Positions 2,236 through 43,005 of a stretch of 44,142 bases of DNA are shown here, one piece after another. A program made the translations under genes and the position numbers. Origin of the DNA: Bacteroidota bacterium (GTDB lineage: Bacteria; Bacteroidota; Bacteroidia; JABEUT01); contig JABCZY010000004.1 of the NCBI GenBank assembly GCA_013289395.1, positions 1-44,142 of the forward strand, given 5' to 3'. Positions within the stretch are counted from its first letter, which is position 1. Each line of letters begins with the position of its first letter. The notes under the pieces were generated by a model that did not search any database, had not been told where the DNA came from, and was given only the letters and a program-made list of their open reading frames with translations.

Positions 2236-3039
2236 ATGCATGAATCTATTACATTAAAGAGCTTACAAGGTAAATTAAGACTGAAAATGCTTGATTTATA
2301 TAAAATGGCAAATGCGGGGCATATAGGTTGCTCCCTAAGTTGCATTGATATTCTAATTGCCTCTTTGATTTTACGAAAGATTGAATCTGATGACTTTATA
2401 TTATCAAAAGGCCATGCTGCCGGTGCTTTATACGTTTGCCTTAATTATAAGGGTGAGCTTACCGATGAGCAATTAATGACTTATTATAAGAACGGAACAT
2501 CATTACCGGCACATCCTGCAGCAGGTAAACATGCAGGCATACCTTTTGCTACCGGCTCACTTGGTCATGGACTACCTATAGGTTGTGGTATTGCTAAAGC
2601 CAACAAAATGAAAAAAACAGATGGGTATGTATATGTTGTTATGAGTGATGGAGAAACTAATGAGGGTACAACATGGGAAGCTTCTCATTTTGCAATAACC
2701 CACAAACTGGATAACTTGATTGCAATTATTGACCGTAACGGAATACAGGGTTTTGGCAATACAAAAAATATATTAGGAGATACCGCAGCGCCAGATTTAT
2801 GGAAGAACTTGGGATATGATATGAGAGAGGTTGAAGGCCATGATGTAACAAAAATAGTTGAAACTATAGATGAGTTAAAAGGACTAAAAAATGGCAGGCC
2901 TAAACTTATTATTGCGAATACAATCAAGGGTAAGGGGGTGTCTTTTATGGAAAATGAGATGGCATGGCACTATTTACCAATGAATGGGGAGCAATTTGAA
3001 AAAGCTAAGCTGGAAATTGAAAAAAATTACTTGAGCTAA
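2236..3039 (+). CDS. Transketolase, N-terminal (ThDP-binding) subunit of a split enzyme
   Basis: A 267-residue protein matching only the N-terminal pyrophosphate-binding domain of transketolase. Visible features are the conserved His region AGHIGCSLS near 27-35, SKGHAAG near 57-63, GSLGHGLPIG near 107-116, and the ThDP/Mg motif SDGETNEG ending in DRN (normally GDG...N; here the first Gly is Ser). Transketolase moves a two-carbon ketol unit between sugars. The C-terminal half with the catalytic Glu is encoded separately at 6900-7808, four genes downstream. The next gene starts 2 bp after this stop, so this is the first gene of an operon. Central-metabolism transketolase is usually one chain of about 660 residues, so this pair probably serves the local sugar pathway (inference). 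Confidence 0.9.
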   Translation: MHESITLKSLQGKLRLKMLDLYKMANAGHIGCSLSCIDILIASLILRKIESDDFILSKGHAAGALYVCLNYKGELTDEQLMTYYKNGTSLPAHPAAGKHAGIPFATGSLGHGLPIGCGIAKANKMKKTDGYVYVVMSDGETNEGTTWEASHFAITHKLDNLIAIIDRNGIQGFGNTKNILGDTAAPDLWKNLGYDMREVEGHDVTKIVETIDELKGLKNGRPKLIIANTIKGKGVSFMENEMAWHYLPMNGEQFEKAKLEIEKNYLS

Positions 3040-3041
3040 GT

Positions 3042-4067
3042 ATGAATTCTCCTTATTCTATTTCTGAAGATTCGGTAAAGCAATTAAATTCTTTGCCAGG
3101 GCCAATTGCAGTTTTTGGCGCAGGTGGCTTTATTGGTATAAACCTATTGCTTGCAATTCTTGAACATAGAAAAGATGTATATGGTATATCTCAGGATCAT
3201 CAAAATAATTGGAGACTCAGCGCATCTCATGTGCCAATGACCAATTTATTATCATGCGATATAAATGACTTTACGCAGTTAAAAGAAGTTATTGAAAATC
3301 TTAAGCCTAAGACAATTTTTAATCTTGCGGCCTACGGAGCCTACCCCAAGCAAACAGAATACAAAAAAACATACCAAACTAATTTTAATTCCAGCATTGA
3401 TATGTTGGAAATATTGAAAAAACAAGGCTTTTCCGCATACGTGTATGCGGGCTCTAGTTCTGAATACGGAATAAATAGCGCAGCTCCGAGTGAGACAGCT
3501 GAACTAATGCCCAATAGTCATTATGCAGTTTCAAAAACCGCCATTTCTTCTGCTTTAAAATATTACGGCCTTATTGAAAAACTTCCGGTGATCAATCTTC
3601 GCCTCTATTCCGTATATGGTCCATGGGAAGAACCTGACAGACTTATACCTGTTCTGATTTCGCATGCCCGTAAAAACAAATTTCCACCATTTGTACAACC
3701 TGATATTTCAAGAGATTTTATATATATTACAGACGTTGTTGCTGCTTTTATTGCAGCTGCAGCTAATGCCGAAAGTAACCTCATCAAAGGCCAATCATTT
3801 AATATTGGTACAGGTAATAAAACTACTATACGCGAATTAGCTATTAAGACAAAAAACATTTGCAATATTAATGAAGACCCCTTGTTTGGCAATATGCAAA
3901 ACCGGAATTGGGATGTGCCGGATTGGTACGCAAATGCGGAAAAGGTTGCAAAAGAGCTCAAGTGGAAATACAGAATTGAATTGGAAGAAGGGTTAAAAAA
4001 AGTTATTGCATGGCAACATGAAGTTGGTTTTGATAATGCTTACTGGAATTGGACAAATAAAATATGA
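3042..4067 (+). CDS. NAD-dependent epimerase/dehydratase (extended SDR)
   Basis: A 341-residue extended short-chain dehydrogenase acting on nucleotide sugars. The Rossmann motif GAGGFIG is at about 26-32, the catalytic Ser lies in AGSSSEYG (about 136-143), and the catalytic YAVSK is near 161-165. LRLYSVYGPWEEPDR and SRDFIYITDVV match the substrate-binding parts of the UDP-glucose-4-epimerase/GDP-mannose-dehydratase group. The exact substrate cannot be read from sequence. It overlaps the next gene by 4 bp (ATGA) and follows the transketolase N-half by 2 bp, so translation is probably coupled. It likely makes or remodels the sugar on which the neighbouring enzymes act. Confidence 0.88.
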   Translation: MNSPYSISEDSVKQLNSLPGPIAVFGAGGFIGINLLLAILEHRKDVYGISQDHQNNWRLSASHVPMTNLLSCDINDFTQLKEVIENLKPKTIFNLAAYGAYPKQTEYKKTYQTNFNSSIDMLEILKKQGFSAYVYAGSSSEYGINSAAPSETAELMPNSHYAVSKTAISSALKYYGLIEKLPVINLRLYSVYGPWEEPDRLIPVLISHARKNKFPPFVQPDISRDFIYITDVVAAFIAAAANAESNLIKGQSFNIGTGNKTTIRELAIKTKNICNINEDPLFGNMQNRNWDVPDWYANAEKVAKELKWKYRIELEEGLKKVIAWQHEVGFDNAYWNWTNKI

Positions 4068-4747
4068 GTAACAATTTATACTCCATTATACTTCCCGCAT
4101 ATAAACAGGAAAACCAGATTTCATTATTATATGAAACCTATGTAAATGCCCTTAGTTTGCTAAGTGACCCATGGGAATTGATATTTGTTATAAATGGGCA
4201 AAAAGATAATTCGCAAAAAATATTAGAAGATCTCTCAAAACATGATCCCAGAATTAAAATTCATTATCTTGAAAAAGGTGGATGGGGCAGGGCAGTTAAA
4301 TATGGCGTATCGGTTGCTACAGGTGAGTTTATTTGCTACACTAATTCAGCAAGAACCAATATTGACGATTTGATCCTAATGTTAAAATACGCTAAAATAA
4401 ATGACAAAGCAATTATAAAAGCCACCCGTATTGTAAGAGAAAGTTTCTTCAGGAAGTTTGGTTCAATACTTTATAATTTTGGGAACAGGTTTCTTTTCAA
4501 AACCCCTGTTTGGGATGTAAATGGTACGCCAAAAATTATTCCCAGAAAAATGCTTGATCTATTCGAAATTGTTTCAGACGATGACTTGATAGATGCAGAA
4601 ATTATGGCTAGGTGCTTTAAAAGCAAAATGATGATAATTGAAATACCTGTTATATCAACTACTCGAATCAGCGGTAAAAGCACAACCAACATACGTTCAG
4701 CATTTAAGATGTACTGGGGCTTATTTAAATTAAAGAAGATAATATGA
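4064..4747 (+). CDS. Glycosyltransferase family 2-like protein
   Basis: A 227-residue GT-A-fold protein. The N-terminus (YSIILPAYKQE, near residues 6-16, then LIFVINGQKDNS) is the GT2 nucleotide-binding start, and GGWGRAVKYGVSVATGEFI matches the polyprenol-phosphate glycosyltransferase pattern before the metal site. The usual Asp-x-Asp is absent: the position reads YTNSART instead of a DADLQ-type motif. Either metal binding differs or the enzyme has changed activity. It has no C-terminal membrane helices. It overlaps both neighbours by 4 bp (ATGA at each end), placing it firmly in the operon. Confidence 0.8.
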   Translation: MSNNLYSIILPAYKQENQISLLYETYVNALSLLSDPWELIFVINGQKDNSQKILEDLSKHDPRIKIHYLEKGGWGRAVKYGVSVATGEFICYTNSARTNIDDLILMLKYAKINDKAIIKATRIVRESFFRKFGSILYNFGNRFLFKTPVWDVNGTPKIIPRKMLDLFEIVSDDDLIDAEIMARCFKSKMMIIEIPVISTTRISGKSTTNIRSAFKMYWGLFKLKKII

Positions 4748-5913
4748 GGAGCGCTGAACGTATATGGAAGAAACAGAATGAAGCCTTCCGTAATCCCCTA
4801 CAGGTTATTTCGTCATCAATTGCTGATTCCGGCATCACTGCTGATTCATTAACCAATATACCTGATACAGGATTTGTTCATTTACTCAGAAGGCTTGGTA
4901 TTACTTTATTAGTAACCCGTGAGTATGAAAATATGGCAATGGCCCTTTATTCAGGTTCGAAAGGGATCTCTCAAACATTTATGCCACTCCCTCACCCTTC
5001 TGGTATTGCGGTTGACAGAAAGAAAAATGCAGTATATATCGCAGCAACAAGAAACCCCAATCAGTTAATAGAGTTCTGCCCCTCAATAACAAGCATTCCC
5101 AGAAAAGAAACCAAAATAAAACCTTTGCACACAGGTTATCTTTTGCCTTCACGGATAAAGTTCTATCCCGGTTGTTATTATTTTCATGATCTTGCCATTA
5201 TTGGCAAGGATCTATACGCCAATTCAGTTGGAATGAATGGTGTAATAAAAGTAGATTGGGGGAAAAGCTCAGAGGAAGATTTGACATGGTTCCCTAACTG
5301 TATTAAAGACAAGAAGGGAAATCCTTTAACCAATGCCAATTACATACAACTTAATTCAATTGCAGCAGGAAAATCAATTAATAGCTCCTTTTTTACTGCA
5401 TCAGGTTCCAAGATAATTAAACAACGGCCGGGGCAAGCAGATTATCCGGTGGATAAAAAGGGAGTTATTTTTTCGGGCCGAACAGGTGAGCCTATTGTAA
5501 AGGGCCTTACCCGCCCGCATTCAGCCAAGCTTTATAAGGGAAAAATATACGTAAACAATAGTGGGTATGGTGAATTTGGCCTTATTGAAAACGGAAAATT
5601 TAAGATACTTGCGACACTGCCTGGATGGACAAGAGGCCTCTGTATTTACAAGGATATTGCTTTTATTGGTGTTTCAAGGGTATTACCTAAATTCAGACAG
5701 TATGCACCGGGTATTAGCAATACGAAACAAGTATGTAGTATATTTGCTTTCTCGCTCACTGAAAAGAAAATTTGCGGAAAAATAGAATGGCCTTTCGGGA
5801 ATCAGGTTTTTGGAATAGATTATATAGATAGTTCTGTAAGCAAGGGATTTTATTATGAAACTACAGCACCGGTTAGTGAAATTGAAACAACTGTTTTTTA
5901 TACTTCTAAGTAA
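4744..5913 (+). CDS. DUF4915 / TIGR03032 family protein
   Basis: A 389-residue protein of unknown enzymatic function. The repeated strand-rich blocks suggest a beta-propeller. Family-typical segments are YYFHDLAI (near 140), LTRPHSAKLYKGKIYVNNSGYGEFG (near 255-280) and LPGWTRGLCIYKDIAFIGVSR (near 290-315). Such proteins often sit beside glycosyltransferases, and here the next gene is a sulfotransferase, suggesting a binding or modifying role in glycan synthesis (inference). No signal peptide, so it is probably cytoplasmic. It starts inside the stop of the GT2 gene (ATGA overlap). Family assignment rests on recognised motifs, not a search. Confidence 0.72.
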   Translation: MRSAERIWKKQNEAFRNPLQVISSSIADSGITADSLTNIPDTGFVHLLRRLGITLLVTREYENMAMALYSGSKGISQTFMPLPHPSGIAVDRKKNAVYIAATRNPNQLIEFCPSITSIPRKETKIKPLHTGYLLPSRIKFYPGCYYFHDLAIIGKDLYANSVGMNGVIKVDWGKSSEEDLTWFPNCIKDKKGNPLTNANYIQLNSIAAGKSINSSFFTASGSKIIKQRPGQADYPVDKKGVIFSGRTGEPIVKGLTRPHSAKLYKGKIYVNNSGYGEFGLIENGKFKILATLPGWTRGLCIYKDIAFIGVSRVLPKFRQYAPGISNTKQVCSIFAFSLTEKKICGKIEWPFGNQVFGIDYIDSSVSKGFYYETTAPVSEIETTVFYTSK

Positions 5914-5948
5914 ATAATACCGATTTAATAATCAATAAATTAAAAACT

Positions 5949-6890
5949 ATGTCAAGTACTCCTTACAAAATGATAATGATCTCCGCAATGTATGAGAATG
6001 GAGGCAATACCACCCACAGGCTTATTGATGGGCATCCTCAGCTTTTCGTATACCCATTTGAGTCGCAGCCGGGAACTAAATATGTGAATGATTATTTTTC
6101 AAGTATGTATCCTTTAAAATATCGCTGGCCTCTTTTTCCCGGCACCGCTGCTGCTGAAGAAATGTATGAAATGATAATTGATGAGGAAGGTAAGGTTCGG
6201 TCGAAAACACCTAATAGCAGTAAATTCAAAGGGGCTGACTTTAGATTAGATGACAAAGACAGGAAAAAAGAATTTGTTCTTTTCTTAAAAAACAAACCAT
6301 TAACAAGAGCCAATGCTGTTGAAGCATTCTTCAGGTCTACATTTAAATCGTGGAAGAATTACAACCATAGCGGAAAGGAAAAAGCATATGTAGGATATAG
6401 CCCCATAATAGGTATTGATGGGGATAAAATTATCTCAGACTATGGTAAGAATGGGCATGTTTTACACGTAATAAGAAATCCTTTTTCAGCATATGCAGAC
6501 ACCAAAAAGAGAGCGGTGCCTTTGTCTATGGCTCATTACATAACAGGGTGGATATTGTGCCAATACCAGTCATTACTTTTTGCAGAGAAATATCCGAACA
6601 ACTACCATATAGTTAGGTTTGAAGATATTATTGAAAACCCTACAGAAGTGCTTGGTAAAGTATTATCAAAGATGGGGATCAGTAAAAGCTCAACGCTTGC
6701 TTATCCAAGTTGGAATGGAGAAAAACTTAAGGAAGTTTACCCTTGGGGAACAATAAGGATACCAACTGCTGAGGTGAATTTAAAAACCGCCAAAGAACTC
6801 AGTACCCAGGAAATAAAAGAAATTCATTCCCGGACAAATACTTATTTGAAGCTGCTTAATTATGAAGGTTTCTATAAGAAACTTGTATAA
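5949..6890 (+). CDS. PAPS-dependent sulfotransferase-like protein
   Basis: A 313-residue protein with the two sulfotransferase nucleotide-binding sites. The 5'-phosphosulfate loop is MYENGGNTTHRLIDGHP (about residues 14-30), followed by the FESQPGTKY region. The 3'-phosphate motif is HVIRNPFSAYADTKKR (about 175-190), the usual hhRxPxxxxxS/T pattern. FEDIIENP near 220 matches the conserved C-terminal part. Sulfotransferases move sulfate from PAPS to hydroxyl or amino groups; here the acceptor is probably a sugar of the local glycan (inference). It lies 35 bp after the DUF4915 gene and 9 bp before the transketolase C-half. An ATG at residue 8 is a possible alternative start. Confidence 0.8.
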   Translation: MSSTPYKMIMISAMYENGGNTTHRLIDGHPQLFVYPFESQPGTKYVNDYFSSMYPLKYRWPLFPGTAAAEEMYEMIIDEEGKVRSKTPNSSKFKGADFRLDDKDRKKEFVLFLKNKPLTRANAVEAFFRSTFKSWKNYNHSGKEKAYVGYSPIIGIDGDKIISDYGKNGHVLHVIRNPFSAYADTKKRAVPLSMAHYITGWILCQYQSLLFAEKYPNNYHIVRFEDIIENPTEVLGKVLSKMGISKSSTLAYPSWNGEKLKEVYPWGTIRIPTAEVNLKTAKELSTQEIKEIHSRTNTYLKLLNYEGFYKKLV

Positions 6891-6899
6891 TATTTCCTT

Positions 6900-7808
6900 T
6901 TGAGAAAAACGTTTTCAAATACAATTGAGGAACTTGCAACTTCAGATGAGAGTATATTATTCCTCACGGGTGATCTTGGATACAATGCTTTTGAAGGGCT
7001 ACAGGAAAAATTAGGAGATCGTTTTATTAATATGGGCGTAGCAGAGCAGAATATGGTAAGCGCTGCAGCAGGAATGGCCTATAAAGGATATAAGGTGTTT
7101 TGTTACAGCATTGCTCCTTTTATTGTGTATAGATGCCTCGAACAATTTCGTAACGATGTTTGTTTTCATGCTCTTCCGGTTTTCCTTATAGGAAATGGTG
7201 GAGGGTATGGATATGGCATTATGGGTTCATCGCACCATGCACTTGAAGATATAGCATGCCTGAGTGGCATGCAAAACAATGGGACATGGGTGCCTGCTTT
7301 CAATGATGATATAAAGCCTTTACTTACCGAAATAGTTGCGCAATCAAAACCAGCATACATCAGACTAGGGCTTGGTAAACCATCACCGGTTAAGCCAACA
7401 AGGCACGGTTCTTTTAACTGTATTTTTGAAAATAATAATGCAAAAGGAATAATAATTACACTTGGTCCGATTGCAAATAATGTTCTTGATGCCCTGTCAA
7501 CAAGTGGATTAAAAGATAAATTCAATCTCTTTTCACTTGTTTCTTTACCTTTAGTCGTTGATGATTATATGTATAAGAAAATGGCCGAATGTGAAAATAT
7601 ACTTGTGGTAGAAGAGCATATATCACTGGGTGGAATAGGGCAGCAAATCGGAAGCTTCCTCCTTGAAAAACAGATAAACCCAAAAAGGTTTATTTCTCTT
7701 TTCGCTAAAGGATATCCCGGTAAATTATATGGTGATCAGGCTTTTCATCAAAAATTATCGGGCCTGGATGCTGAAAATATTGCCAGGATACTAAAGGAAT
7801 TCATCTGA
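6900..7808 (+). CDS. Transketolase, C-terminal (pyrimidine-binding) subunit of a split enzyme
   Basis: A 302-residue protein matching the middle and C-terminal transketolase domains. The catalytic Glu that activates ThDP lies in NMGVAEQNM (near 44-52), followed by SAAAGMAYKGYKVFCYS. LVVEEHISLGGIGQQI near 237-252 is the typical C-terminal domain pattern. The start is a TTG 9 bp after the sulfotransferase stop; the next Met is inside a conserved segment, so TTG is preferred. It should pair with the ThDP/Mg-binding half at 2236-3039. Having the halves at opposite ends of a six-gene run is unusual. Confidence 0.88.
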   Translation: MRKTFSNTIEELATSDESILFLTGDLGYNAFEGLQEKLGDRFINMGVAEQNMVSAAAGMAYKGYKVFCYSIAPFIVYRCLEQFRNDVCFHALPVFLIGNGGGYGYGIMGSSHHALEDIACLSGMQNNGTWVPAFNDDIKPLLTEIVAQSKPAYIRLGLGKPSPVKPTRHGSFNCIFENNNAKGIIITLGPIANNVLDALSTSGLKDKFNLFSLVSLPLVVDDYMYKKMAECENILVVEEHISLGGIGQQIGSFLLEKQINPKRFISLFAKGYPGKLYGDQAFHQKLSGLDAENIARILKEFI

Positions 7809-7840: not shown

Positions 7841-7870
7841 ACCAATAACATACTACGTAGTATTGGTCTT
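7841..7870. terminator. Inverted repeat between convergent genes, possible bidirectional terminator
   Basis: ACCAATA (7841-7847) pairs with TATTGGT (7861-7867). The interior also holds a perfect 14-bp palindrome (7850-7863, ATACTAC/GTAGTAT), so two alternative folds compete. It is followed by CTTT on the + side and lies in the 61-bp gap between the stops at 7808 and 7870. Confidence 0.4.
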
Positions 7871-9015
7871 TAAATACTGTGCGTTATAAATTTCATTCTA
7901 TATAACTGCGGAAGTAGCGGATAAAAATCATCGTACACCAAATTTATAAGTATAACTAATGCCACTATCCTGAAAGCTTCTTCCTTTGGGAAGAGTTTAT
8001 CTAGTAGTATCAGGATCAATATGAGAATTAATATATCATAGGACATGCTTCTGTTACGATCAACCAATGACTGTGAAATAAAGAGCAATAACAAAAAAGT
8101 CATAATGAGCAAAGTAGGGAACATATAAATGCGTTTTCTAAATAAAGCAATAACAACTAAAACAAAAGGGATAATAAAACCTTCTAATCCTATATAAAAA
8201 GTATTGAAAAGCTTATTTATCTGTGCGAAGAAAAGATTCTCAGCTCCGGTTCCCGTATATAAACCAAAAGCATTATGTAAACTATACCTGATTACAAAAT
8301 ATACGCCCCAGGAAACAAATAAACAAATACTAGAGGAAAATAAAGCGCCCTTTAAAATAGATCTAAAGTCATCAAAGCTATTATTGTCAATCATGTTAAA
8401 AAGGAATATAGCAGGCGATACAATCAGTGCTCTTTCATCTGAAAAATAAGCCAGTAACAAAGGAACTATGACATACATTTTTTTGCGAGCTAAAAGCACC
8501 ATTAAAAGAAAGTCTAATGAAAGTGTATCAAATACGCCCCTATAATCGGAACCATAAACATGCCCTGCAACTACAAAACAGATAGGTAAAATAAAAATAA
8601 ATGATTTAGCCCTGTCATTAAAAAAACTATTAAAAACGAGTACTAATAAATAGTAAAAGAGTACTAGTGTGAAAAATTGAAATATTAAACCGGGTATTAC
8701 GGTATATATGTGTAAGAAATTCAATATAACTGCAGGCACAAATCTAAACGCTATATTATCGCTATGCGGACCATATAAATGGTTTGTGTGATGATTTACA
8801 AAAGGTTGTGCTCCTTGTATAAAAACGGCATCCCAATTATTACCCATTTCATTTGTCCTCAATACCACATCATATGAAGGAAAGCTCCAAAATACAACAA
8901 TGGCAACTAAAGCGAGGGTAGATAGAAAGTAACTTGAAATGATTGTTTTAAAAAGTCTTGTGTTTATAAGTAGTTCCAGTAATTTTGCTGGATAAGACAG
9001 TAATTTTTCTCTCAT
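7870..9015 (-). CDS. Polytopic inner-membrane protein of unknown function
   Basis: A 381-residue protein with about ten hydrophobic segments. The first long non-membrane loop after helix 1 (about residues 45-90, with NNWDAVFIQG and HHTNHLYGPHSDN) is polar and His-rich; YFSDERALIVSP lies near 190. I do not recognise the family with confidence. Placement convergent to the glycan cluster and general shape resemble GT-C or polymerase-like glycan membrane proteins, but the diagnostic D/E motif is not clear. The function is unassigned. Confidence 0.6.
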   Translation of the reverse strand: MREKLLSYPAKLLELLINTRLFKTIISSYFLSTLALVAIVVFWSFPSYDVVLRTNEMGNNWDAVFIQGAQPFVNHHTNHLYGPHSDNIAFRFVPAVILNFLHIYTVIPGLIFQFFTLVLFYYLLVLVFNSFFNDRAKSFIFILPICFVVAGHVYGSDYRGVFDTLSLDFLLMVLLARKKMYVIVPLLLAYFSDERALIVSPAIFLFNMIDNNSFDDFRSILKGALFSSSICLFVSWGVYFVIRYSLHNAFGLYTGTGAENLFFAQINKLFNTFYIGLEGFIIPFVLVVIALFRKRIYMFPTLLIMTFLLLLFISQSLVDRNRSMSYDILILILILILLDKLFPKEEAFRIVALVILINLVYDDFYPLLPQLYRMKFITHSI

Positions 9016-12852: not shown

Positions 12853-15126
12853 CTAAATGCGCACTCCTATCACCAAAATATCATCTACCTGCTCTACTCC
12901 TGCTTTCCACTTCTCAATATGATCATCTAAATATTGTTCTTGTTGAGGCATTGTTTTGTCTTGGATTGCAATAAGCAACTGCTTGAAATTCTTTGTAGTG
13001 AGCTTTTTCTGGTTAGGCCCTCCAAATGTATCTGCATATCCGTCAGAAAATATATAGAATGTATCTCCCTGCTCTAATTCTATCTCATGCGAATCAAAAT
13101 GTTGATCATCTTCTGTAAATCCGCCAATTGCTTTTTTTGTTGCCTTAATCTCTTCTATCTCGCTTTTACCTTTACGAATCAACCAGAAAGGCCTGTTAGC
13201 TCCTGCATACCTTACAATATGGCTTTTCATATCAATTGAACATATTGCAATGTCCATTCCATCACGAGTTGATTCTTTGTCCTCAGATTGATGCAGGGAA
13301 TTCTTGAGTTCCTTATTAAGGTAATTCAATATATGAGAAGTATCAGTACTTTGCTCCACAGCAAGGCTCAATTTCTCTGAGCCTATTATACTCATAAATG
13401 CCCCTGGAACTCCATGTCCCGTACAGTCCGCCGCTGCAATTAAAACTGAGTTTCCCTTAGTATGAAAAAAATAAAAATCTCCACTTACTATATCCTTTGG
13501 TTTAAAAAGAATGAAACTTTGTGGCAACGCGGACATAATTTCATTTCTCTTGGGAAGCCGGGCATGTTGAATTCTTTTTGCATACGTAATACTGCTCGTA
13601 ATATCCTTGTTCTTTTCTTCAATTATCTTATTCTTATCTTCCAGCAGAAAATTAGCCTTTCTCTTTTGCACATAAGCCCTTGAAATAAATGTAGCAAACA
13701 ACAACACAAGCATTAAGCCGGCAATACTAAAATAAGTTATTGTTTTCTGTCTCTGTTTTTCTTCTTTCACAATTACTTCTTTTTTTTCCTGTTCCGCCTT
13801 TTCTATGGCCTTCTTTTTTTCATACTCGTTCCGCAGATTTTCCTGCGCAAGCGCTTTATGAATTCCATCTTTGTTTAACTTTTCACTATATATAAAATAT
13901 TGCTGATAATGGGCGTAGGCACTTTTATAATCGCCCAATATCGAATCAAGTTGTGCGCAACATTTTTCATCAAGCATGATACTTGTCAGTTCCCCGCTTT
14001 TAATAGCAAGCGAAAGTGATTGTTGCATGTATTCCTTTGCCGTTTTATATTGCTTCTGATCCCAGTATATCAACCCTAATTGACTAAGACCTCTCGAAGT
14101 TTCAATGTCATAATCCCCATTTTTGATTGAATTCAATGCATCGTTACAATATCTGATAGCCTCACTATAATTCGCCTCATTTTCATATACCTGGCATATA
14201 GCACGAAGAACTCTGCTTGTCATATAATTATTATGCCCTTTTACAATGGGCAAATACTTTTGAAAATACTCAAGCGCTTTAGCAAAATTCTTTTGTCGAA
14301 AATATAACTGCCCTATATAAAAATACGCGATTCCTACGCCTTTTTCATTATTCTTTTTCTCAAATAGTATTATTGCTTTTTTAAAATAATCCAGTGCGTT
14401 AGCAGTATCATGAATTCTGGAATATAATATACCTATATTAATCAGGTTATTGCCAATCAAACTTGTATCCTTCAATTCATTGACCACAGATAAACTCATT
14501 TGCATTTTCTCTAAAGCCTGAGTAGTATCCCCATAATCCATGTAAATGCTTGCAACTTGAGACAACAACAGCTGCATGCCTTTTTTATAATTCATTTTAT
14601 TTAATAACTCTATATTCTGCTGGTAATATTCCAGTTGTTTCATAACATTGCCCTGCCTTGCATAGTCAAACCCAATATCATATATAGTTTTAGCAAAGCC
14701 TTTATTATCATTAATTTCCTTGTATATCAAAAGCATTTTTTCATGATACATTAATGCTTTGGGAGTACCTCCTCCTTCATACTTCTGGTAATACTCTATA
14801 ATGCAGGAAAAAGCATTAGCCTTTTGCTCCAGAATAGATTTACGGGCACTTTTATAATTATCCACAGAAAGTAAACTATCTGCCAGTTTTACTAAAGGTT
14901 CAGCATACTTCAGGTTATCCTTAACATCGCATGCATCGCAAAGAGCGGAATATAAACGCAATTGGCTCGTATCGGCCTTTTCGGTTTTGATTAATGCAAG
15001 AAGTGAGTCTATCTTATGAGCGCTCTGCCCCATAATACCGGAAGCATATAACAAGCCAAATACCAGTAAACCGGCAAATCGCGAAATAGAAGGCCGGAAT
15101 ACTTGGTTATGAAACTGCACGCTCAT
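12853..15126 (-). CDS. TPR - transmembrane - SpoIIE/PP2C-type phosphatase
   Basis: The protein has 757 residues from ATG 15126; an in-frame GTG at 15138 is an alternative start. Order: signal peptide (ending near GIMGQ), TPR-type helical repeats (about 60-420) with repeated AL-Y/F-K patterns, a charged coiled coil, one membrane helix (about 462-482), a second coiled coil (RIQHARLPKR), then a SpoIIE-type phosphatase domain (about 540-757). Metal/active-site motifs are present: DIVSGDFYFF, AADCTGHGVPGAFM, RDGMDIAI, FSDGYAD and QVDDILVIGV. The architecture suggests a sensor that dephosphorylates anti-sigma-antagonist or other Ser/Thr-phosphoproteins (inference). A close paralog is divergent at 15555. 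Confidence 0.88.
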   Translation of the reverse strand: MSVQFHNQVFRPSISRFAGLLVFGLLYASGIMGQSAHKIDSLLALIKTEKADTSQLRLYSALCDACDVKDNLKYAEPLVKLADSLLSVDNYKSARKSILEQKANAFSCIIEYYQKYEGGGTPKALMYHEKMLLIYKEINDNKGFAKTIYDIGFDYARQGNVMKQLEYYQQNIELLNKMNYKKGMQLLLSQVASIYMDYGDTTQALEKMQMSLSVVNELKDTSLIGNNLINIGILYSRIHDTANALDYFKKAIILFEKKNNEKGVGIAYFYIGQLYFRQKNFAKALEYFQKYLPIVKGHNNYMTSRVLRAICQVYENEANYSEAIRYCNDALNSIKNGDYDIETSRGLSQLGLIYWDQKQYKTAKEYMQQSLSLAIKSGELTSIMLDEKCCAQLDSILGDYKSAYAHYQQYFIYSEKLNKDGIHKALAQENLRNEYEKKKAIEKAEQEKKEVIVKEEKQRQKTITYFSIAGLMLVLLFATFISRAYVQKRKANFLLEDKNKIIEEKNKDITSSITYAKRIQHARLPKRNEIMSALPQSFILFKPKDIVSGDFYFFHTKGNSVLIAAADCTGHGVPGAFMSIIGSEKLSLAVEQSTDTSHILNYLNKELKNSLHQSEDKESTRDGMDIAICSIDMKSHIVRYAGANRPFWLIRKGKSEIEEIKATKKAIGGFTEDDQHFDSHEIELEQGDTFYIFSDGYADTFGGPNQKKLTTKNFKQLLIAIQDKTMPQQEQYLDDHIEKWKAGVEQVDDILVIGVRI

Positions 15127-15138
15127 TAATTTCTGCAC

Positions 15139-15387
15139 TCTGCTTTTTTTATTTCAAATTATTAGATTGAGTGATAGAATACAGTAAAAATACCATTAAA
15201 ATCTAATTGAAATACCATGTGGAGGAAGAGAAATCGATTAGAATACGCTATTGTGGTTTCCCTGAGGCTAAGAGCAAAATTCAAAACCCTACATCACTAA
15301 ATTCAATGATGGTGTTTTGCCGATGTAATTGCCAATGCAATTTTGTTACGAAACGGCAGAGAGAAAAGCCCTTAACAATTGTAAAAG
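15139..15387. other. Intergenic region between divergent phosphatase paralogs (left part)
   Basis: The whole gap is 15127-15554. Apart from the terminator and tRNA relict I see no gene; an 86-codon + frame crosses both structures and has no recognisable content. The minus promoter of the 12853-15126 gene should be near 15150-15165, where a loose -7-like ATAATTTG occurs. Confidence 0.35.
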
Positions 15388-15417
15388 CGAAAAAGGTGCT
15401 ATTTCGCGCCTTTTTCG
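15388..15417. terminator. Strong stem-loop terminator next to a tRNA 3'-end relict
   Basis: A 12-bp stem (15388-15399 with 15406-15417, one U-G pair) and a 6-nt loop, A-rich on one arm and T-rich on the other. It works on either strand. On the minus strand it directly follows a sequence like a tRNA 3' end, the same order as at the tRNA-Cys gene and its terminator (20481-20580). No intact + or - strand gene in the window is clearly served by it. Confidence 0.75.
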
Positions 15418-15435
15418 AGGTGCCTAGCGGAATAT
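15418..15435 (-). pseudogene. Displaced or relict tRNA 3' end
   Basis: Minus strand ATTCCGCTAGGCACC followed by T matches the 3' side of a tRNA: last T-loop bases, 3' T-stem (CCGCT, same as in tRNA-Cys here), 7-nt acceptor strand and discriminator. The rest of the T-arm, anticodon arm and the matching 5' acceptor (GGTGCCT) are missing upstream. A terminator follows at once. This is the expected appearance of a tRNA 3' end displaced by a tRNA-targeting integrase. Confidence 0.5.
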
Positions 15436-15554
15436 ACGTTGCGTGTCATAAGCTATTGATTATTTGAGGTATACTATTGCTGGCTCTTTCATAAACCACG
15501 CAATAATGAGTGAAAACCATAAAAAAATTACTTTTATAATCTTAATTGTAACGA

Positions 15555-17807
15555 ATGTCTTGGCTTAATAGGTTTTTATTTTCATTTTTTGTTACAGGGG
15601 TTGGTGTGGTTTCCCCCTACTTCGCTTCTGCACAAAACTCTCAGATAGATTCGTTAACGATGGCCTTAAAAAAGTCAGTTAGCGATACAAACCGTGCATT
15701 TTATTTAAATAAACTCAGTTTTCAATATGAAAACATAGGAAACTATATTATGGCCGATTCTATGTCGCACCAAGCCCTAAACTTGGCAACTAAAGAAGGG
15801 TATAAACGTGGCATTGCTTTAGCGTACACTCAAATGGCAAGCGTATATGAAGATCAGGGGAATTATCAAAAAGCGCTGGAAAATTTCTCGAAGGCACTAG
15901 CGATTCGTAAACAATTAAAGGATAAAAGTGGTACTGCGAACTCCCTTAAAAGAATAGGTTTTGTATATAATGAGGAAAGTGAATACTCACTTGCCCTAGG
16001 TTACTTGCAAGAAGCCTCAATGATATACCAGGAGATAAAAGATAAGCATGGTATAGCCATGGTGCAAATTGATATTGGTAAGGTATATACCAACCAGGGC
16101 AATTACGCCAAGGCGCTTGAAGAGCATTTAAATGCTTTAAACGTATTGGAGGAGACAAATGATACCAGCAACATGATATTAACCTACCAGAACATTGGGA
16201 ATGTTTACAGCGGGCAAAAAGCTTATGATAAAGCTCTTGATGAGTATAGAAATGCACTTTTATTAAGCGAAAAGAAGCAAGACACCACAAATATAGCCGA
16301 TGCAGAGAGTAATATTGGCCTTACATACAGTAATAAGGGAGAATACCCGAAAGCCTTGGCAGAAAATTTTAAAGCGCTGGATATACGTACAAAACATAAT
16401 GACAAAAATGGCATTGCAACTTCTCTTATAAATATAGGTGGCATATATTATGCGCAGCAAGATTTCCCGAAAGCTTTAGATTATATTGGTAGGTCGTTGG
16501 ATATTTTTGAGAAGATAGGAAATAAGGACGGCGTTGCAGCTTGCCTTGGTGGTATTGGTCAGGTTTACCAGATGCAAAAAAATTATCCGAAAGCGCTGGA
16601 ATTTGAAAACAAAAGCCTGGACCTTGCTAAAAGTATTGGCTCACTTGATGATATTGCAAGTTCATACCTGACTTTGAGCAGTACTCTGGAGTTGACAGGA
16701 AATACAGGCAAGGCCCTTGAATACTACAAGGATTTTATAAAATATCAAGACAGCATATCGAATAAAGAGAATACAAAAAAAACTGTGCAGGCCGAAATGA
16801 ATTATAATTTCGAAAAGAAACAGGCCGCCGAAAAAGCCGACCAGGACAAGAAGGACGCGATACAGGCAGAAGCGGTAAAAAAACAGAAAATAGTTATTTA
16901 CTCTGTATCAGGTATACTGTTACTGGTTATTGGTTTTGCCATTTTTGCTTATCGCAGCAATTTACAAAAACAAAAAGCCAATCGAGAACTGGATATTAAG
17001 AACAAAAAGATAGAGGCCGCCTATACTATTATTGAAACAAAAAACCATGAAATAACCGATAGTATAAATTACGCCCAGCGAATACAGCAGGCCATACTTC
17101 CGAAAAAGAAAGAAATACTTGAGAGCATACCCGAAAGCTTTGTGCTTTTTAAGCCCAAAGACATTGTAAGCGGAGATTTTTATTTTTTTGCCAACAGGAA
17201 CAATACTAAATTTATTGCAGCGGTAGATTGTACAGGGCATGGCGTTCCGGGTGCATTCATGAGTATGATCGGATGGGAAAAATTGAATGATGCAGTAGAA
17301 GAGACTCCACATACCGGTGAGGTACTAAAGTTATTGAACAGGCGAATAAAAACAGCACTGCACCAATCCAATGACAGAGACAGTACACGGGACGGAATGG
17401 ATATTGCCATCTGCTCTATGCAATATAACCCCGGTGGATTGGATCTTTCTTTTTCCGGAGCTAACCGCCCTATATGGATAGTAAGAAAGGGTACAAAGCA
17501 AGTGGAAGAAATAAAGGCCACCAAAAGATCGATAGGAGGTTTTTCAGAAGAAGATCAGGATTTTGAGGAGCATCAACTGGCCTTGAAGCACGGAGATTCT
17601 TTTTATATCTTCTCTGACGGATACGCCGACCAGTTTGGTGGGGAAAAACAAAAAAAACTTACCACCAAAAAATTCAGAGAGCTCATACTTGATATATGTG
17701 AGCTTCCCATGAACGAACAGGAAAGACACCTGGATGATTTCATTGAAAAATGGAAAGTAAACAGCGAACAGATAGATGATATTCTGGTAATAGGTATAAG
17801 GGTATAA
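15555..17807 (+). CDS. TPR - transmembrane - SpoIIE/PP2C-type phosphatase (paralog)
   Basis: A 750-residue protein with the same plan as the divergent gene at 12853-15126. A signal peptide (to about residue 26, FASAQ) is followed by about eight TPR units (about 55-400; e.g. GNYQKALENFSKAL, GNYAKALEEHLNAL), coiled coil, one membrane helix (about 447-467), a second coiled coil (RIQQAILPKK) and a SpoIIE domain (about 535-750). Motifs DIVSGDFYFF, AVDCTGHGVPGAFM, RDGMDIAI, FSDGYADQFGG and QIDDILVIGI are intact, so it is likely an active Mg/Mn-dependent Ser/Thr phosphatase facing the cytoplasm with the TPRs in the periplasm. No kinase or STAS partner gene is adjacent. Confidence 0.9.
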   Translation: MSWLNRFLFSFFVTGVGVVSPYFASAQNSQIDSLTMALKKSVSDTNRAFYLNKLSFQYENIGNYIMADSMSHQALNLATKEGYKRGIALAYTQMASVYEDQGNYQKALENFSKALAIRKQLKDKSGTANSLKRIGFVYNEESEYSLALGYLQEASMIYQEIKDKHGIAMVQIDIGKVYTNQGNYAKALEEHLNALNVLEETNDTSNMILTYQNIGNVYSGQKAYDKALDEYRNALLLSEKKQDTTNIADAESNIGLTYSNKGEYPKALAENFKALDIRTKHNDKNGIATSLINIGGIYYAQQDFPKALDYIGRSLDIFEKIGNKDGVAACLGGIGQVYQMQKNYPKALEFENKSLDLAKSIGSLDDIASSYLTLSSTLELTGNTGKALEYYKDFIKYQDSISNKENTKKTVQAEMNYNFEKKQAAEKADQDKKDAIQAEAVKKQKIVIYSVSGILLLVIGFAIFAYRSNLQKQKANRELDIKNKKIEAAYTIIETKNHEITDSINYAQRIQQAILPKKKEILESIPESFVLFKPKDIVSGDFYFFANRNNTKFIAAVDCTGHGVPGAFMSMIGWEKLNDAVEETPHTGEVLKLLNRRIKTALHQSNDRDSTRDGMDIAICSMQYNPGGLDLSFSGANRPIWIVRKGTKQVEEIKATKRSIGGFSEEDQDFEEHQLALKHGDSFYIFSDGYADQFGGEKQKKLTTKKFRELILDICELPMNEQERHLDDFIEKWKVNSEQIDDILVIGIRV

Positions 17808-39068: not shown

Positions 39069-39926
39069 ATGCTGGTTAAAACATATGGAAGTGCAGTTAG
39101 CGGAATAGATGCTACAACAATTACAGTCGAAGTAAATGTGAGTGCAGGGGTTAATTTCTTTTTAGTGGGATTGCCCGATAGCGCAGTTAAGGAAAGCCAG
39201 CAGCGGATAGATGCCGCTCTTAAAAATAATGGGTTCCGTTTGCCCGGTAAAATGATAACCGTAAATATGGCGCCGGCCGATATTCGTAAGGAAGGTTCTT
39301 CTTATGACCTAACTATAGCAATTGGCATACTAGCCGCTTCGGAACAAATAACAAGCGAGAAGGTTGGCGAATATGTAATTATGGGCGAACTGTCTCTTGA
39401 TGGAGGACTACAACCCATAAAAGGCGTATTGCCTATAGCCCTTAATGCCCGAAAAGAAGGATTTAAAGGGCTTATTCTGCCTGAGCAGAATGCTAAAGAG
39501 GCTGCAATTGTAGAAGGCCTGAATGTATATGGTATTAAGAATATTAAGGAAGCGATTGATTTTTTAAATGGCGATATAGAATTACAACCTGTTGTAGTTG
39601 ATGCTCTCGAAACATTTCATACTCAGTTATCATTGGCCGATGTAGATTTTGCAGATGTAAAAGGCCAGGAAAATATAAAACGGGCACTTGAAATTGCAGC
39701 TGCCGGCGGGCATAATGTAATACTGATCGGCCCTCCGGGTGCCGGCAAAACTATGTTAGCAAAACGCCTACCCACCATATTACCTCCACTTACATTAGAT
39801 GAAGCACTTGAAACCACAAAAATACATTCCGTTGCAGGTAAGGTAGGAAGTGGCAAAGGGCTTGTAGCATCGCGTCCGTTCCGTGCTCCGCACCATACTA
39901 TTTCAGATGTGGCTTTGTTGCAATGA
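39069..39926 (+). pseudogene. YifB/ComM-type AAA ATPase, interrupted at the 3' side by a mobile element
   Basis: The open frame has 285 codons, while YifB/ComM proteins run to about 510. Present: the Lon-S16-like N-domain (about 1-170; GLPDSAVKESQQRI, MAPADIRKEGSSYDL) and the ATPase Walker A GPPGAGKT (about 221-228) up to RPFRAPHHTISDVAL (about 270-283). Family proteins go on with VGGG and then the Walker B region, but here the frame ends LLQ-stop. The stop arises where the mobile element begins. Lost: Walker B, the rest of the AAA domain and the C-terminal domain. In proteobacteria ComM aids natural transformation, so that function is probably inactivated here. Confidence 0.85.
39903..39926. 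other. Element-chromosome junction (att half-site) in the YifB gene
   Basis: YifB frame and serine recombinase frame overlap tail-to-tail over these 24 bp. Family conservation (SDVAL followed by VGGG) puts the last host base near 39917. The crossover dinucleotide cannot be set without the other junction, which is beyond the right edge. Confidence 0.65.
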
Positions 39927-41612
39927 GGCATTTTTAGTATCAGGTCCTAATTCCCATATTCCCCCATCTTCTTTCTCAATACCAATAGGATGCCATCCAA
40001 GCCCTTTTTTGGGTATTTCATATATCCAAGGAGCAAGCTTTAATTCCAGGTTAAAAATGACCTTAACAATATGCGTGTTTGCCTTTTCGTCAAATCCAAT
40101 TCGAATCTGATGTATATAATTTTTCAATAATTCCCTTTTTTCTATATCGGTTTTACTGTCAAGATCAGAGTTTAAGTCTTCAAATACCTTTATATTGGGG
40201 AACTGAAGGTCCTTTTTGGATTGTAGGAATTTAAGCTCATTAATTGCTGATTGTATTTTACCTTCTAAATTTCCAATTTCTTCAATAAATTCATTATTTT
40301 TTTGAGTCAACTGCTCATCTGAAAATATTCTTTTAGTTGCAAGAGTAAGCAAGGTATTTTGTTGGTCTTTAATACTCGAAATCTGATTGTAATAGGTCTT
40401 GACATAATGTTCCAATTCTTTTATTTTCTTTTCATCTATTCCAGTCCCAAGCTCATTTATTGCCTTTACCAAAAGAATATTCGACTCCTTAAAATTTGTC
40501 CAAACGACCTCATTCAACCGATCAATATTAATACTCCTCATATTGCACTCTTTATGCCGTTTTGAGACACATGAATAAACCCGCATACTTCTTTTGGGTT
40601 TTATTATACCATACATACCTTTTCCGCATTTTTCACATCGAATAAAACCCTTGAGCATATAAAAATGGACTTTATTGTTCCTTCCTGCAAGAATACTGTT
40701 ATTCTTAAGGTTTTTTTGAACAGCTTCCCATAGAGACACTTCAATCATCGGTGTCACAGGTAATATTAGACCCTTATATCGCCTATGCCCTTTATAAATT
40801 GGATTTTTTAAAATACTCAAGATGGTATTAGGTCTCCAAATAATATCTTCTTGATTAACGTGTCGAACTTCACCGGTTAGTCTGTCTTTTAATTTTAAGC
40901 CATTTACAAGGCTTTTCCTGCCTCGTGTCGGAACTCCTTCCTCATTTAGATTCTTGGCTATTGTTGCCGTACCAATGCCTTCTAAACTCATCTTGAAGAT
41001 TTTTATAATGATTAAAACTTCATCCGGGTGAAACTCTAATGGTCCGCTTTCAATTTTAATGATTTCGTCACCATCAAATATTTTTATAGATTGCCTACGA
41101 AATCCATAAGGGAGCATAACACCACCACTCCATTTGCCTTTTTTGGCTGATTGTTCCAAGGTTCGCACTACCCTCTCATTTTTCAACCTTATTTCATGCA
41201 TGCTCAATACATTACTTATACCAAGCATTAATTCATGTGTAGGATTATTTTTGATGTCATATATATTATGGGAATCATAAAATAATATGCCATACTTCTT
41301 AAATATGCCTTTAATATAAGCTCCAATTTTTTCATTTCTGGCTAACCTATCCCACTCAGTACAAAAAATATGCTTAACCACCCCTTTCTCGCATCCTTCC
41401 AATAGACCTTTAAATACTGGTCTATTGTCTAAATTATCAGCAGTAGCGCTTGTGCCGGTGTTTTCATCACCTTCTCTCTGAATAATGGGAATCAAGTTAT
41501 AAGTATTTCCAATTCTTAAACCTGTCTCTTCTTGTGCAGGTGGGCTATTATCTTTTTTAGCGCTTTTATCTCCAGAGACCCGAATATAAATATGCAATTC
41601 TTCCTTCTTCAT
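39903..41612 (-). CDS. Large serine recombinase
   Basis: A 569-residue site-specific integrase. The N-terminal resolvase domain (about 1-150) has the nucleophile Ser13 in YIRVSGDKS and EWDRLARNE (about 88-96). The recombinase domain (about 165-300; MLPYGFRR, AKNLNEEGVPTRGRK, ILKNPIYKGHRRY) is followed by a zinc ribbon (RCEKCGKGMYG, then YSCVSKRHKECN, about 323-355) and a coiled-coil region. Its reading frame runs 3' into the truncated YifB gene: the last codons (about QQSHI) and the TGA stop are in host DNA. This position beside the junction is typical for an integrase gene next to its attachment site. Confidence 0.92.
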   Translation of the reverse strand: MKKEELHIYIRVSGDKSAKKDNSPPAQEETGLRIGNTYNLIPIIQREGDENTGTSATADNLDNRPVFKGLLEGCEKGVVKHIFCTEWDRLARNEKIGAYIKGIFKKYGILFYDSHNIYDIKNNPTHELMLGISNVLSMHEIRLKNERVVRTLEQSAKKGKWSGGVMLPYGFRRQSIKIFDGDEIIKIESGPLEFHPDEVLIIIKIFKMSLEGIGTATIAKNLNEEGVPTRGRKSLVNGLKLKDRLTGEVRHVNQEDIIWRPNTILSILKNPIYKGHRRYKGLILPVTPMIEVSLWEAVQKNLKNNSILAGRNNKVHFYMLKGFIRCEKCGKGMYGIIKPKRSMRVYSCVSKRHKECNMRSINIDRLNEVVWTNFKESNILLVKAINELGTGIDEKKIKELEHYVKTYYNQISSIKDQQNTLLTLATKRIFSDEQLTQKNNEFIEEIGNLEGKIQSAINELKFLQSKKDLQFPNIKVFEDLNSDLDSKTDIEKRELLKNYIHQIRIGFDEKANTHIVKVIFNLELKLAPWIYEIPKKGLGWHPIGIEKEDGGIWELGPDTKNASLQQSHI

Positions 41613-41853
41613 GATTCCGTTACAGTTTCGTTATTTTAGCTATATCCTGATATAACCCAGTAAATTTCAATTTAAATTACCTCAACAAAAAAGCCTATCA
41701 ATAAAGGCTTGTATAGAATTATATACTGCCTTAAATTCTCTATAAGAATTATGGTCAAATGTTACTGAGCTCCATAATCGTTTGATATACTGGGTATTCC
41801 ATTTTATTCGTTATTATTTTCGTTAATTTCAACAGAATACCCAGTTAAATTAA
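41613..41853. repeat. Intergenic region dense in inverted repeats between the two integrase genes
   Basis: It holds: TATATC/GATATA (41641-41654); AAGCCT/AGGCTT terminator stem (41691-41710); AGAATT at 41715-41720 and 41745-41750 with AATTCT at 41734-41739; and an 11-bp perfect inverted pair ACTGGGTATTC (41789-41799) and GAATACCCAGT (41835-41845). A third ACCCAGT occurs near 41655. Candidate recombinase or regulator binding sites. Confidence 0.55.
41683..41710 (-). terminator. Terminator after the tyrosine recombinase gene
   Basis: On the minus strand AAGCCT pairs with AGGCTT (loop of 8), followed by TTTTTG. It lies about 145 bp after the stop at 41854 and before the serine recombinase start at 41612, so the two integrases are transcribed separately. 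Confidence 0.65.
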
Positions 41854-43005
41854 TTAGGCAGCTATATTTCCAATACCCACTATGTCCAATTCCGGAAGTG
41901 TATCGAACCTTACATCAAAGTAGTGTAATAAGGTTGCCTCCTTCAATTCACTCTCTAGGATTTCTCCATAATTTGTCATTCCTATGGTATTAGGAACGTG
42001 ACCAAGTGCTTTCTCCATAATCTCTACCCTCTTAGTATGGTTTAGTATTAGATTAGCAAAAGTTTTTCGGCAGCAGTGAGTAGTAATATGCTTGGGAATA
42101 CCAGCTGCTTTTACCCAGTTAAAGAGTGCCTTTCGGAATAAATGATATCCAATGATCTTGAATCCTGGGAAAATGAAATCATTATCATTACCACGCTTTC
42201 CCAATAATCTAACAACATCAGGACGTATGTAAATGTGTAACAATTTGCCGGTCTTAGACATACATTTATTTAGGACGTACTCATTATTACCCTTTTCAAG
42301 AATATGTTTCCATTGCAGGCTTTTCAGATCTGAAATTCTTAGCCCAGAAAAGACACCAAATATTACAGAAACCTTTATGAAATCATATTTGCAATAAGCA
42401 GCCCACATAGCTGATACATCTTCAGCACTTAATATCTCTTTCGACGCACATGGTATTTTTCTTATGGGTTTAACATCAAGATAATTGTGAATCAAACCAT
42501 ACTTCGTTGCCACATTTAATACATGGCTGATTTTAGTAAAATTACCATACGAAGTATTAATATGCCGACATTTCGCTATGAAGAATTCTTGCAAGTCATC
42601 AACAAAAAACTGGTCAATTCTATTAAATGGCAGCTCGTTTGTTCTCAAGCCTTTTGACTGCAAAAAGTCCTTAAGAAGATTTCTTGGGTATTTATATGTT
42701 TTTTTCGTATGTGCTTTTTTACCCATCTCTACTTTTTCATAAAGAGCAAGAAAATCCTTTCTCCATCCATCAGATAAATAGAAGTTTTCATTTACTTCAG
42801 TTTCCAATCTAATTCTCTCCATTTCAGCTCTTACCATGGCATCCTTATCATCCAGGCTTGTAGCTTTAAAATCTAATCGTCTAGTAAGTTCTGCGTTACG
42901 AATTCCTGTTGCTTTATCTTTGAATTCAATGTAAAGTGTATATCCGTCCTTTTTAGGTGTTAGGTCCACTCTTACTCGACCTTTATATTGTGTATTGTTT
43001 TCCAT
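41854..43005 (-). CDS. Tyrosine recombinase/integrase, complete
   Basis: A 383-residue integrase of the Bacteroidota type. An N-terminal arm-binding region (about 1-90), SAM-like core-binding domain (about 95-190), and catalytic domain (about 195-370) with box I Arg in SGLRISDL (about 222), HxxR in THCCRKTFA (about 306), LGHVPN (about 335) and the nucleophile Tyr in MTNYGEI (about 344). All catalytic residues seem present, so it is probably active. It may serve this element or be an inner element's integrase; the serine recombinase next to the junction is the likelier integrase for the YifB site (inference). Its leader shares 19 nt with the next upstream gene. Confidence 0.92.
   Translation of the reverse strand: MENNTQYKGRVRVDLTPKKDGYTLYIEFKDKATGIRNAELTRRLDFKATSLDDKDAMVRAEMERIRLETEVNENFYLSDGWRKDFLALYEKVEMGKKAHTKKTYKYPRNLLKDFLQSKGLRTNELPFNRIDQFFVDDLQEFFIAKCRHINTSYGNFTKISHVLNVATKYGLIHNYLDVKPIRKIPCASKEILSAEDVSAMWAAYCKYDFIKVSVIFGVFSGLRISDLKSLQWKHILEKGNNEYVLNKCMSKTGKLLHIYIRPDVVRLLGKRGNDNDFIFPGFKIIGYHLFRKALFNWVKAAGIPKHITTHCCRKTFANLILNHTKRVEIMEKALGHVPNTIGMTNYGEILESELKEATLLHYFDVRFDTLPELDIVGIGNIAA

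Follow-up and report, generated by a model that had tools for sequence, protein, structure and literature searches.

A split transketolase in a six-gene sugar cassette of a Bacteroidota genus and its possible role in C2-branched surface sugars

A six-gene cassette in the analysed contig (C4; 44,142 nt from a Bacteroidota bacterium, the whole stretch being called the window below) encodes both halves of a specialised split transketolase (Tkt). A dedicated function of this Tkt in glycan synthesis is well supported, and its chemistry is best read as C2 branching of a keto sugar.

The six-gene cassette

Six ORFs, all on the + strand, were found at 2236–7808 in the order tktN-SDR-GT2-DUF4915-ST-tktC. 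The domain assignments were made by Pfam/NCBIfam profile searches:

2236..3039, +: tktN, ThDP/Mg half of the split transketolase (Transketolase_N, 5.5e-33)
3042..4067, +: extended SDR of the nucleotide-sugar epimerase/dehydratase/reductase type (Epimerase, 3.9e-43; GAGGFIG and YxxxK present)
4064..4747, +: GT2-like protein without DxD (Glycos_transf_2, 8.3e-17)
4744..5913, +: DUF4915 protein, predicted beta-propeller (DUF4915, 8.7e-43)
5949..6890, +: divergent sulfotransferase-like protein, ST (weak Sulfotransfer_3)
6900..7808, +: tktC, pyrimidine-binding/catalytic-Glu half plus C-terminal part of the split transketolase (Transket_pyr, 4.8e-24)

Two of the junctions are 4-bp ATGA overlaps, and the remaining gaps are 2, 35 and 9 bp. 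The window genome (1.87 Mb, 52% complete) belongs to an order represented in the search set by one genus with 11 genomes. The identical six genes in the identical order were present in two of the ten congeners (G006 and G010), with 50–68% identity per protein (57–58% for the SDR). The tightly packed run described in the original prediction was borne out at its coordinates, and because its order is repeated in G006 and G010, it is a conserved unit; a chance neighbourhood of six genes is ruled out by the kept order and the recurrence. Among the loci searched, the exact order was found in the window genus only. The G006 and G010 blocks have common surroundings (ABC transporter, phosphofructokinase), which are absent around the window block.

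A TTG start was seen for tktC in the window (6900), G006 and G010, and likewise for tktN in G006 and G010. On either side of the cassette, multi-pass membrane proteins without a Pfam match are encoded on the minus strand (516–1835 and 7870–9015); they are possible membrane glycosyltransferases.

A complete transketolase with an altered acceptor site

The first and last genes had been predicted to be halves of one transketolase, and this was confirmed. Together, tktN and tktC aligned end to end with a single transketolase model (NF004559, 17–281 and 321–622 of 627), and both ThDP domains were present across the pair (Transketolase_N and Transket_pyr). In the Pfam/NCBIfam searches, transketolase models matched both halves, and no ThDP decarboxylase family (YerE-like) was among the matches listed. 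The closest solved chain to tktN was 6yak (5.5e-63), itself the N-terminal chain of a split transketolase, and tktC matched the split chains 6yaj/6yak at 4.5e-34. The two-chain enzyme of Carboxydothermus hydrogenoformans (6yaj, 6yak) is the closest solved relative of both halves. The window tktC differs from this enzyme in its place within a sugar cluster and in the loss of the phosphate-binding His and the acceptor Asp.

The active-site histidines of tktN were largely kept among the loci: His29 and His60 in 75 of 77 each, His93 in 72 of 77 and His245 in all 77. The catalytic Glu49 of tktC was kept in 83 of 83 loci. The residue signature of the split-Tkt set is GGGxxYGxMGxTHHALED.

The residues of tktC were mapped to human transketolase by HMMER alignment. 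We take human R318, S345, H416, D424 and R474 to be the phosphate/acceptor residues, with H416 binding phosphate and D424 belonging to the acceptor site. In the window tktC, R318 and R474 correspond to R2 and R155 (kept), and S345, H416 and D424 to N29, G100 and M108 (replaced), so the residue set of a sugar-phosphate transketolase is incomplete. Position 100 was Gly instead of His in 82 of 83 loci, and position 108 was other than Asp in 81 of 83. The housekeeping split tktC of the window genome (L007), which retains Ser, His and Asp, accounts for the single exception at position 100 and for one of two exceptions at position 108. Since both phosphate-site arginines are kept, the enzyme may still use a phosphorylated substrate.

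A dedicated role would have been unlikely if these halves were the only transketolase of the genome, or if in most relatives they lay apart from sulfotransferase genes and beside pentose-phosphate genes. Both objections failed. The window genome has a second split Tkt on contig C47, at the contig end, and G010 and G006 each have a full-length Tkt plus an additional split Tkt. An additional Tkt was found in all 16 comparator genomes checked (16/16), and the relatives lie in sugar/glycan clusters. A housekeeping pentose-phosphate role of the cassette Tkt is ruled out by the other Tkt genes together with the altered phosphate site. The prediction of a dedicated Tkt was thereby supported: the enzyme is split, is not the housekeeping one and is linked to nucleotide-sugar genes and an ST. 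In the second split Tkt of the window genome (L007, 8611–11523), the halves are separated by an unrelated gene, whose product looks by eye like a protein with a von Willebrand-type domain.

A wider tktN-tktC-SDR core

A genome scan with tktC, based on conserved peptides of three sequences, gave at least 80 loci; counts from the loci listed are not frequencies. In about 64 of the 80 loci listed, from roughly ten phyla, tktN and tktC adjoined an SDR or an SDR-GT2 fusion. In 58 of the loci listed, the SDR fell into a cluster whose typical member is an SDR-GT2 fusion of ~650 aa, and the cassette SDR is homologous to the SDR half of this fusion. Going by the titles of the records or by the tree, tktC loci occur in phyla such as Bacteroidota, Planctomycetota, Pseudomonadota, Myxococcota, Acidobacteriota, Cyanobacteriota, Armatimonadota, Chloroflexota, Bdellovibrionota, Ignavibacteriota and Kiritimatiellota. 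Cultured relatives with such loci include Dyadobacter and Larkinella strains (L011–L029). Across the loci, tktN-tktC-SDR forms the conserved core, with the SDR usually fused to a second GT2, and GT2-DUF4915-ST is a rarer add-on to it. The core of the predicted gene order is widespread; the full six-gene order was seen in the window genus only. In G006, a separate SDR and an SDR-GT2 fusion adjoining tktC were also observed (L009, 4890–6878), which is perhaps an intermediate between the two layouts.

The GT2-like protein of the cassette has N94-x-A96 at the DxD position, aligned with DGD of the fused GT2. The sequence CYTN[SA]ART in place of DxD was invariant in five sequences from three phyla. 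Judged by this motif, the protein may not be a normal glycosyltransferase. The AlphaFold2 model of the DUF4915 protein (pLDDT 77, pTM 0.82) was mostly beta, and its top Foldseek matches were beta-propellers.

In some other lineages, the split Tkt lies with CDP-hexose genes. Three Armatimonadota loci (L139, L140 and L141) have the order RfbF-RfbG-ST-APH-like kinase-SDR-tktN-tktC. A Wzx-like flippase follows tktC in L141, and similar ORFs are present in L139 and L140. The glucose-1-phosphate cytidylyltransferase of L141 scored 385 bits (cut-off 300), and its CDP-glucose 4,6-dehydratase-like SDR (RfbG) scored 215 bits, below the cut-off of 278. In the distant proteobacterial relatives L084 and L088, RfbF-, RfbG- and RfbH-like genes precede tktN-tktC; the names rest on sequence clustering and visual inspection, and one related aminotransferase was profile-scored. 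Their gene order is the one expected for a CDP-3,6-dideoxy-4-ketohexose, the type of acceptor used by YerE (CDP-3,6-dideoxy-4-keto-D-glucose; PMC12247030). No CDP-glucose 4,6-dehydratase was found at E <= 1e-60 in G010 (96% complete, with the cassette) or G000. The CDP-glucose pathway as substrate source in the window genus is therefore unsupported, and the acceptor there must be another keto sugar.

The sulfotransferase-like protein and its link to the transketolase

The predicted gene identities held for the SDR and the DUF4915 protein by profiles and for the GT2-like protein by Glycos_transf_2, with the missing DxD as a reservation; the ST was the weakest assignment. The window ST scored 17.9 bits with Sulfotransfer_3, below the Pfam cut-off of 27, and the match was weak in all three copies of the genus (best E 3.7e-5). 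The ST model was of low confidence (pLDDT 59.7), and its best Foldseek matches were sulfotransferases, none at E <= 0.001. The protein shares the N-terminal loop and the RNP motif with PAPS sulfotransferases (Sulfotransfer_3) and has Asp where the 3'-phosphate motif normally has Ser. It differs from them in its score below the gathering cut-off and in being a tight family, found only with the split Tkt in the genomes searched. PAPS supply is indicated by an APS kinase (PF01583) in the window genome (1.6e-63) and in G006 and G010; congeners without the cassette have it likewise.

Strong homologues of the ST were rare: 3 of 395 genomes of the class had one. In the phylum to which the Spirulina locus belongs, it was 1 of 292 genomes (the centre genome itself), and in that of L046 it was 5 of 291 (one being the centre genome). 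In all eight loci with enough contig (8/8, three phyla), tktN, tktC and an SDR lay within ~4 kb of the ST; the ST of G761, on a 3.5-kb contig, is outside this count. Five genomes were found by the ST search alone (G006, G010, G756, G760 and G762), and all five had tktN, tktC and the SDR. Because L046 and L083 were picked up by the Tkt scan, they do not count as independent evidence for the link. No ST was confirmed in viral contigs, and none matched in plasmids.

The ST-bearing loci are spread over at least four distinct Tkt lineages. On the Tkt tree of 31 of the 86 rows, five changes of the ST label are required, and one common ST clade was rejected (p-AU 0.0009), meaning that ST and Tkt came together on more than one occasion. 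In the window genus, L046 and L083, the ST is accompanied by GT2 and DUF4915, which were not detected beside it in L139–L141. The ST is strongly tied to the cassette-type Tkt.

Proposed function and alternatives

The original prediction, a two-carbon transfer to a sugar or sugar nucleotide followed by glycosyl transfer and sulfation, was mostly to partly supported. From genes and residues we infer the substrate, the position of the branch, the sequence of the steps, the sulfation and the product. We lean towards the following route. The tktN and tktC halves would assemble into a specialised split transketolase, which would take a hydroxyacetyl (C2) unit from a ketose and place it on the keto group of a sugar activated by a nucleotide or a lipid, rather than on a sugar phosphate. 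The product would be a C2-branched sugar. The SDR would either generate the keto sugar or reduce the new branch ketone. The GT2-like protein, the ST and the DUF4915 propeller would then build the branched sugar into a surface glycan or modify it there. Sulfation of the cassette product is likely, and the sulfate would probably be added to the branched sugar.

The kept phosphate-site arginines also fit an enzyme that forms or extends a heptulose, an octulose or a pentose precursor, either free or phosphorylated; this sugar would be activated later, with chain extension and no branching. This would be normal transketolase chemistry, and the APH-family kinase in the Armatimonadota loci would suit it. 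We consider it unlikely, since the acceptor-site His and Asp are lost, an isomerase or a heptose kinase/phosphatase/nucleotidylyltransferase set was not seen adjoining the Tkt, and the distant relatives are placed after the RfbF-RfbG-RfbH-like genes. The same CDP-hexose genes point to nucleotide sugars and thus speak against a polyprenyl-phosphate-linked keto sugar as acceptor, where the fused SDR-GT2 would load the lipid carrier and the Tkt would act there or on a precursor. That fusion, whose GT2 resembles a polyprenyl-phosphate transferase, in 58 loci and PMT-like membrane proteins close by argue for such an acceptor. However, no fused SDR-GT2 was found elsewhere in the window genome (52% complete) or in G010 (96% complete), and we regard this as quite improbable.

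Glycan clusters are hot spots of gene exchange, the exact six-gene order was seen in one genus only, and the window block differs from the G006/G010 blocks in its surroundings. The genes could thus merely share a mobile glycan island, with Tkt, ST and SDR serving unrelated sugars. The constant company of tktN, tktC and SDR around the ST wherever the contig suffices, on separate Tkt lineages, makes this very unlikely. Extending the C2-branching route beyond the window genus is more tentative than the route itself: a multi-phylum class of split Tkts may make C2-branched and, in some lineages, sulfated surface sugars via keto nucleotide sugars, with the ST family recruited several times.

Relation to known systems

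The original prediction knew of no described pathway with this gene set, and none was found; split-gene Tkts, however, had already been proposed to branch keto sugars. According to a 2025 review, hydroxyacetyl transfer to keto sugars was proposed for split-gene Tkts in miharamycin/amipurimycin; the 13 putative branching Tkt sequences were all from Streptomycetes, with none characterised in vitro, and the use of ketone acceptors by transketolase is proposed, with no in vitro study (PMC12247030). These Tkts, like that of the window cassette, are split and adjoin an oxidoreductase. They differ in belonging to Streptomyces nucleoside-antibiotic clusters (compared by description), whereas the present loci are glycan-type clusters with SDR-GT2 fusions or ST in Bacteroidota, Armatimonadota, Planctomycetota, Pseudomonadota and others.

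The yersiniose A pathway is similar in that a ThDP enzyme (YerE) attaches a two-carbon unit to a CDP-keto sugar that goes into an O-antigen, and the Rfb-like genes of L084 and L088 are those expected to make its acceptor. YerE belongs to the decarboxylase superfamily (acetaldehyde from pyruvate), whereas the cassette enzyme is a split transketolase.

A literature search on DUF4915, TIGR03032 and split transketolase gave nothing beyond PMC12247030; subscription papers were mostly outside this search, and an earlier report is possible. Compared with the 13 Streptomycetes candidates, the present Tkt set is larger and genetically compact, with a residue signature, a candidate CDP-keto-sugar substrate in some lineages and a co-occurring ST family. 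C2 branching by transketolase thereby becomes directly testable, and the set hints that the surface glycans of several phyla contain branched sugars not yet charted.

Other features of the window

Two adjacent TPR-SpoIIE phosphatase-type proteins are encoded on opposite strands at 12853–17807; the one on the + strand was profile-scored and the other was recognised by eye. Near the window end (39903–43005), a serine recombinase lies beside a phage-type integrase, which suggests a mobile element.
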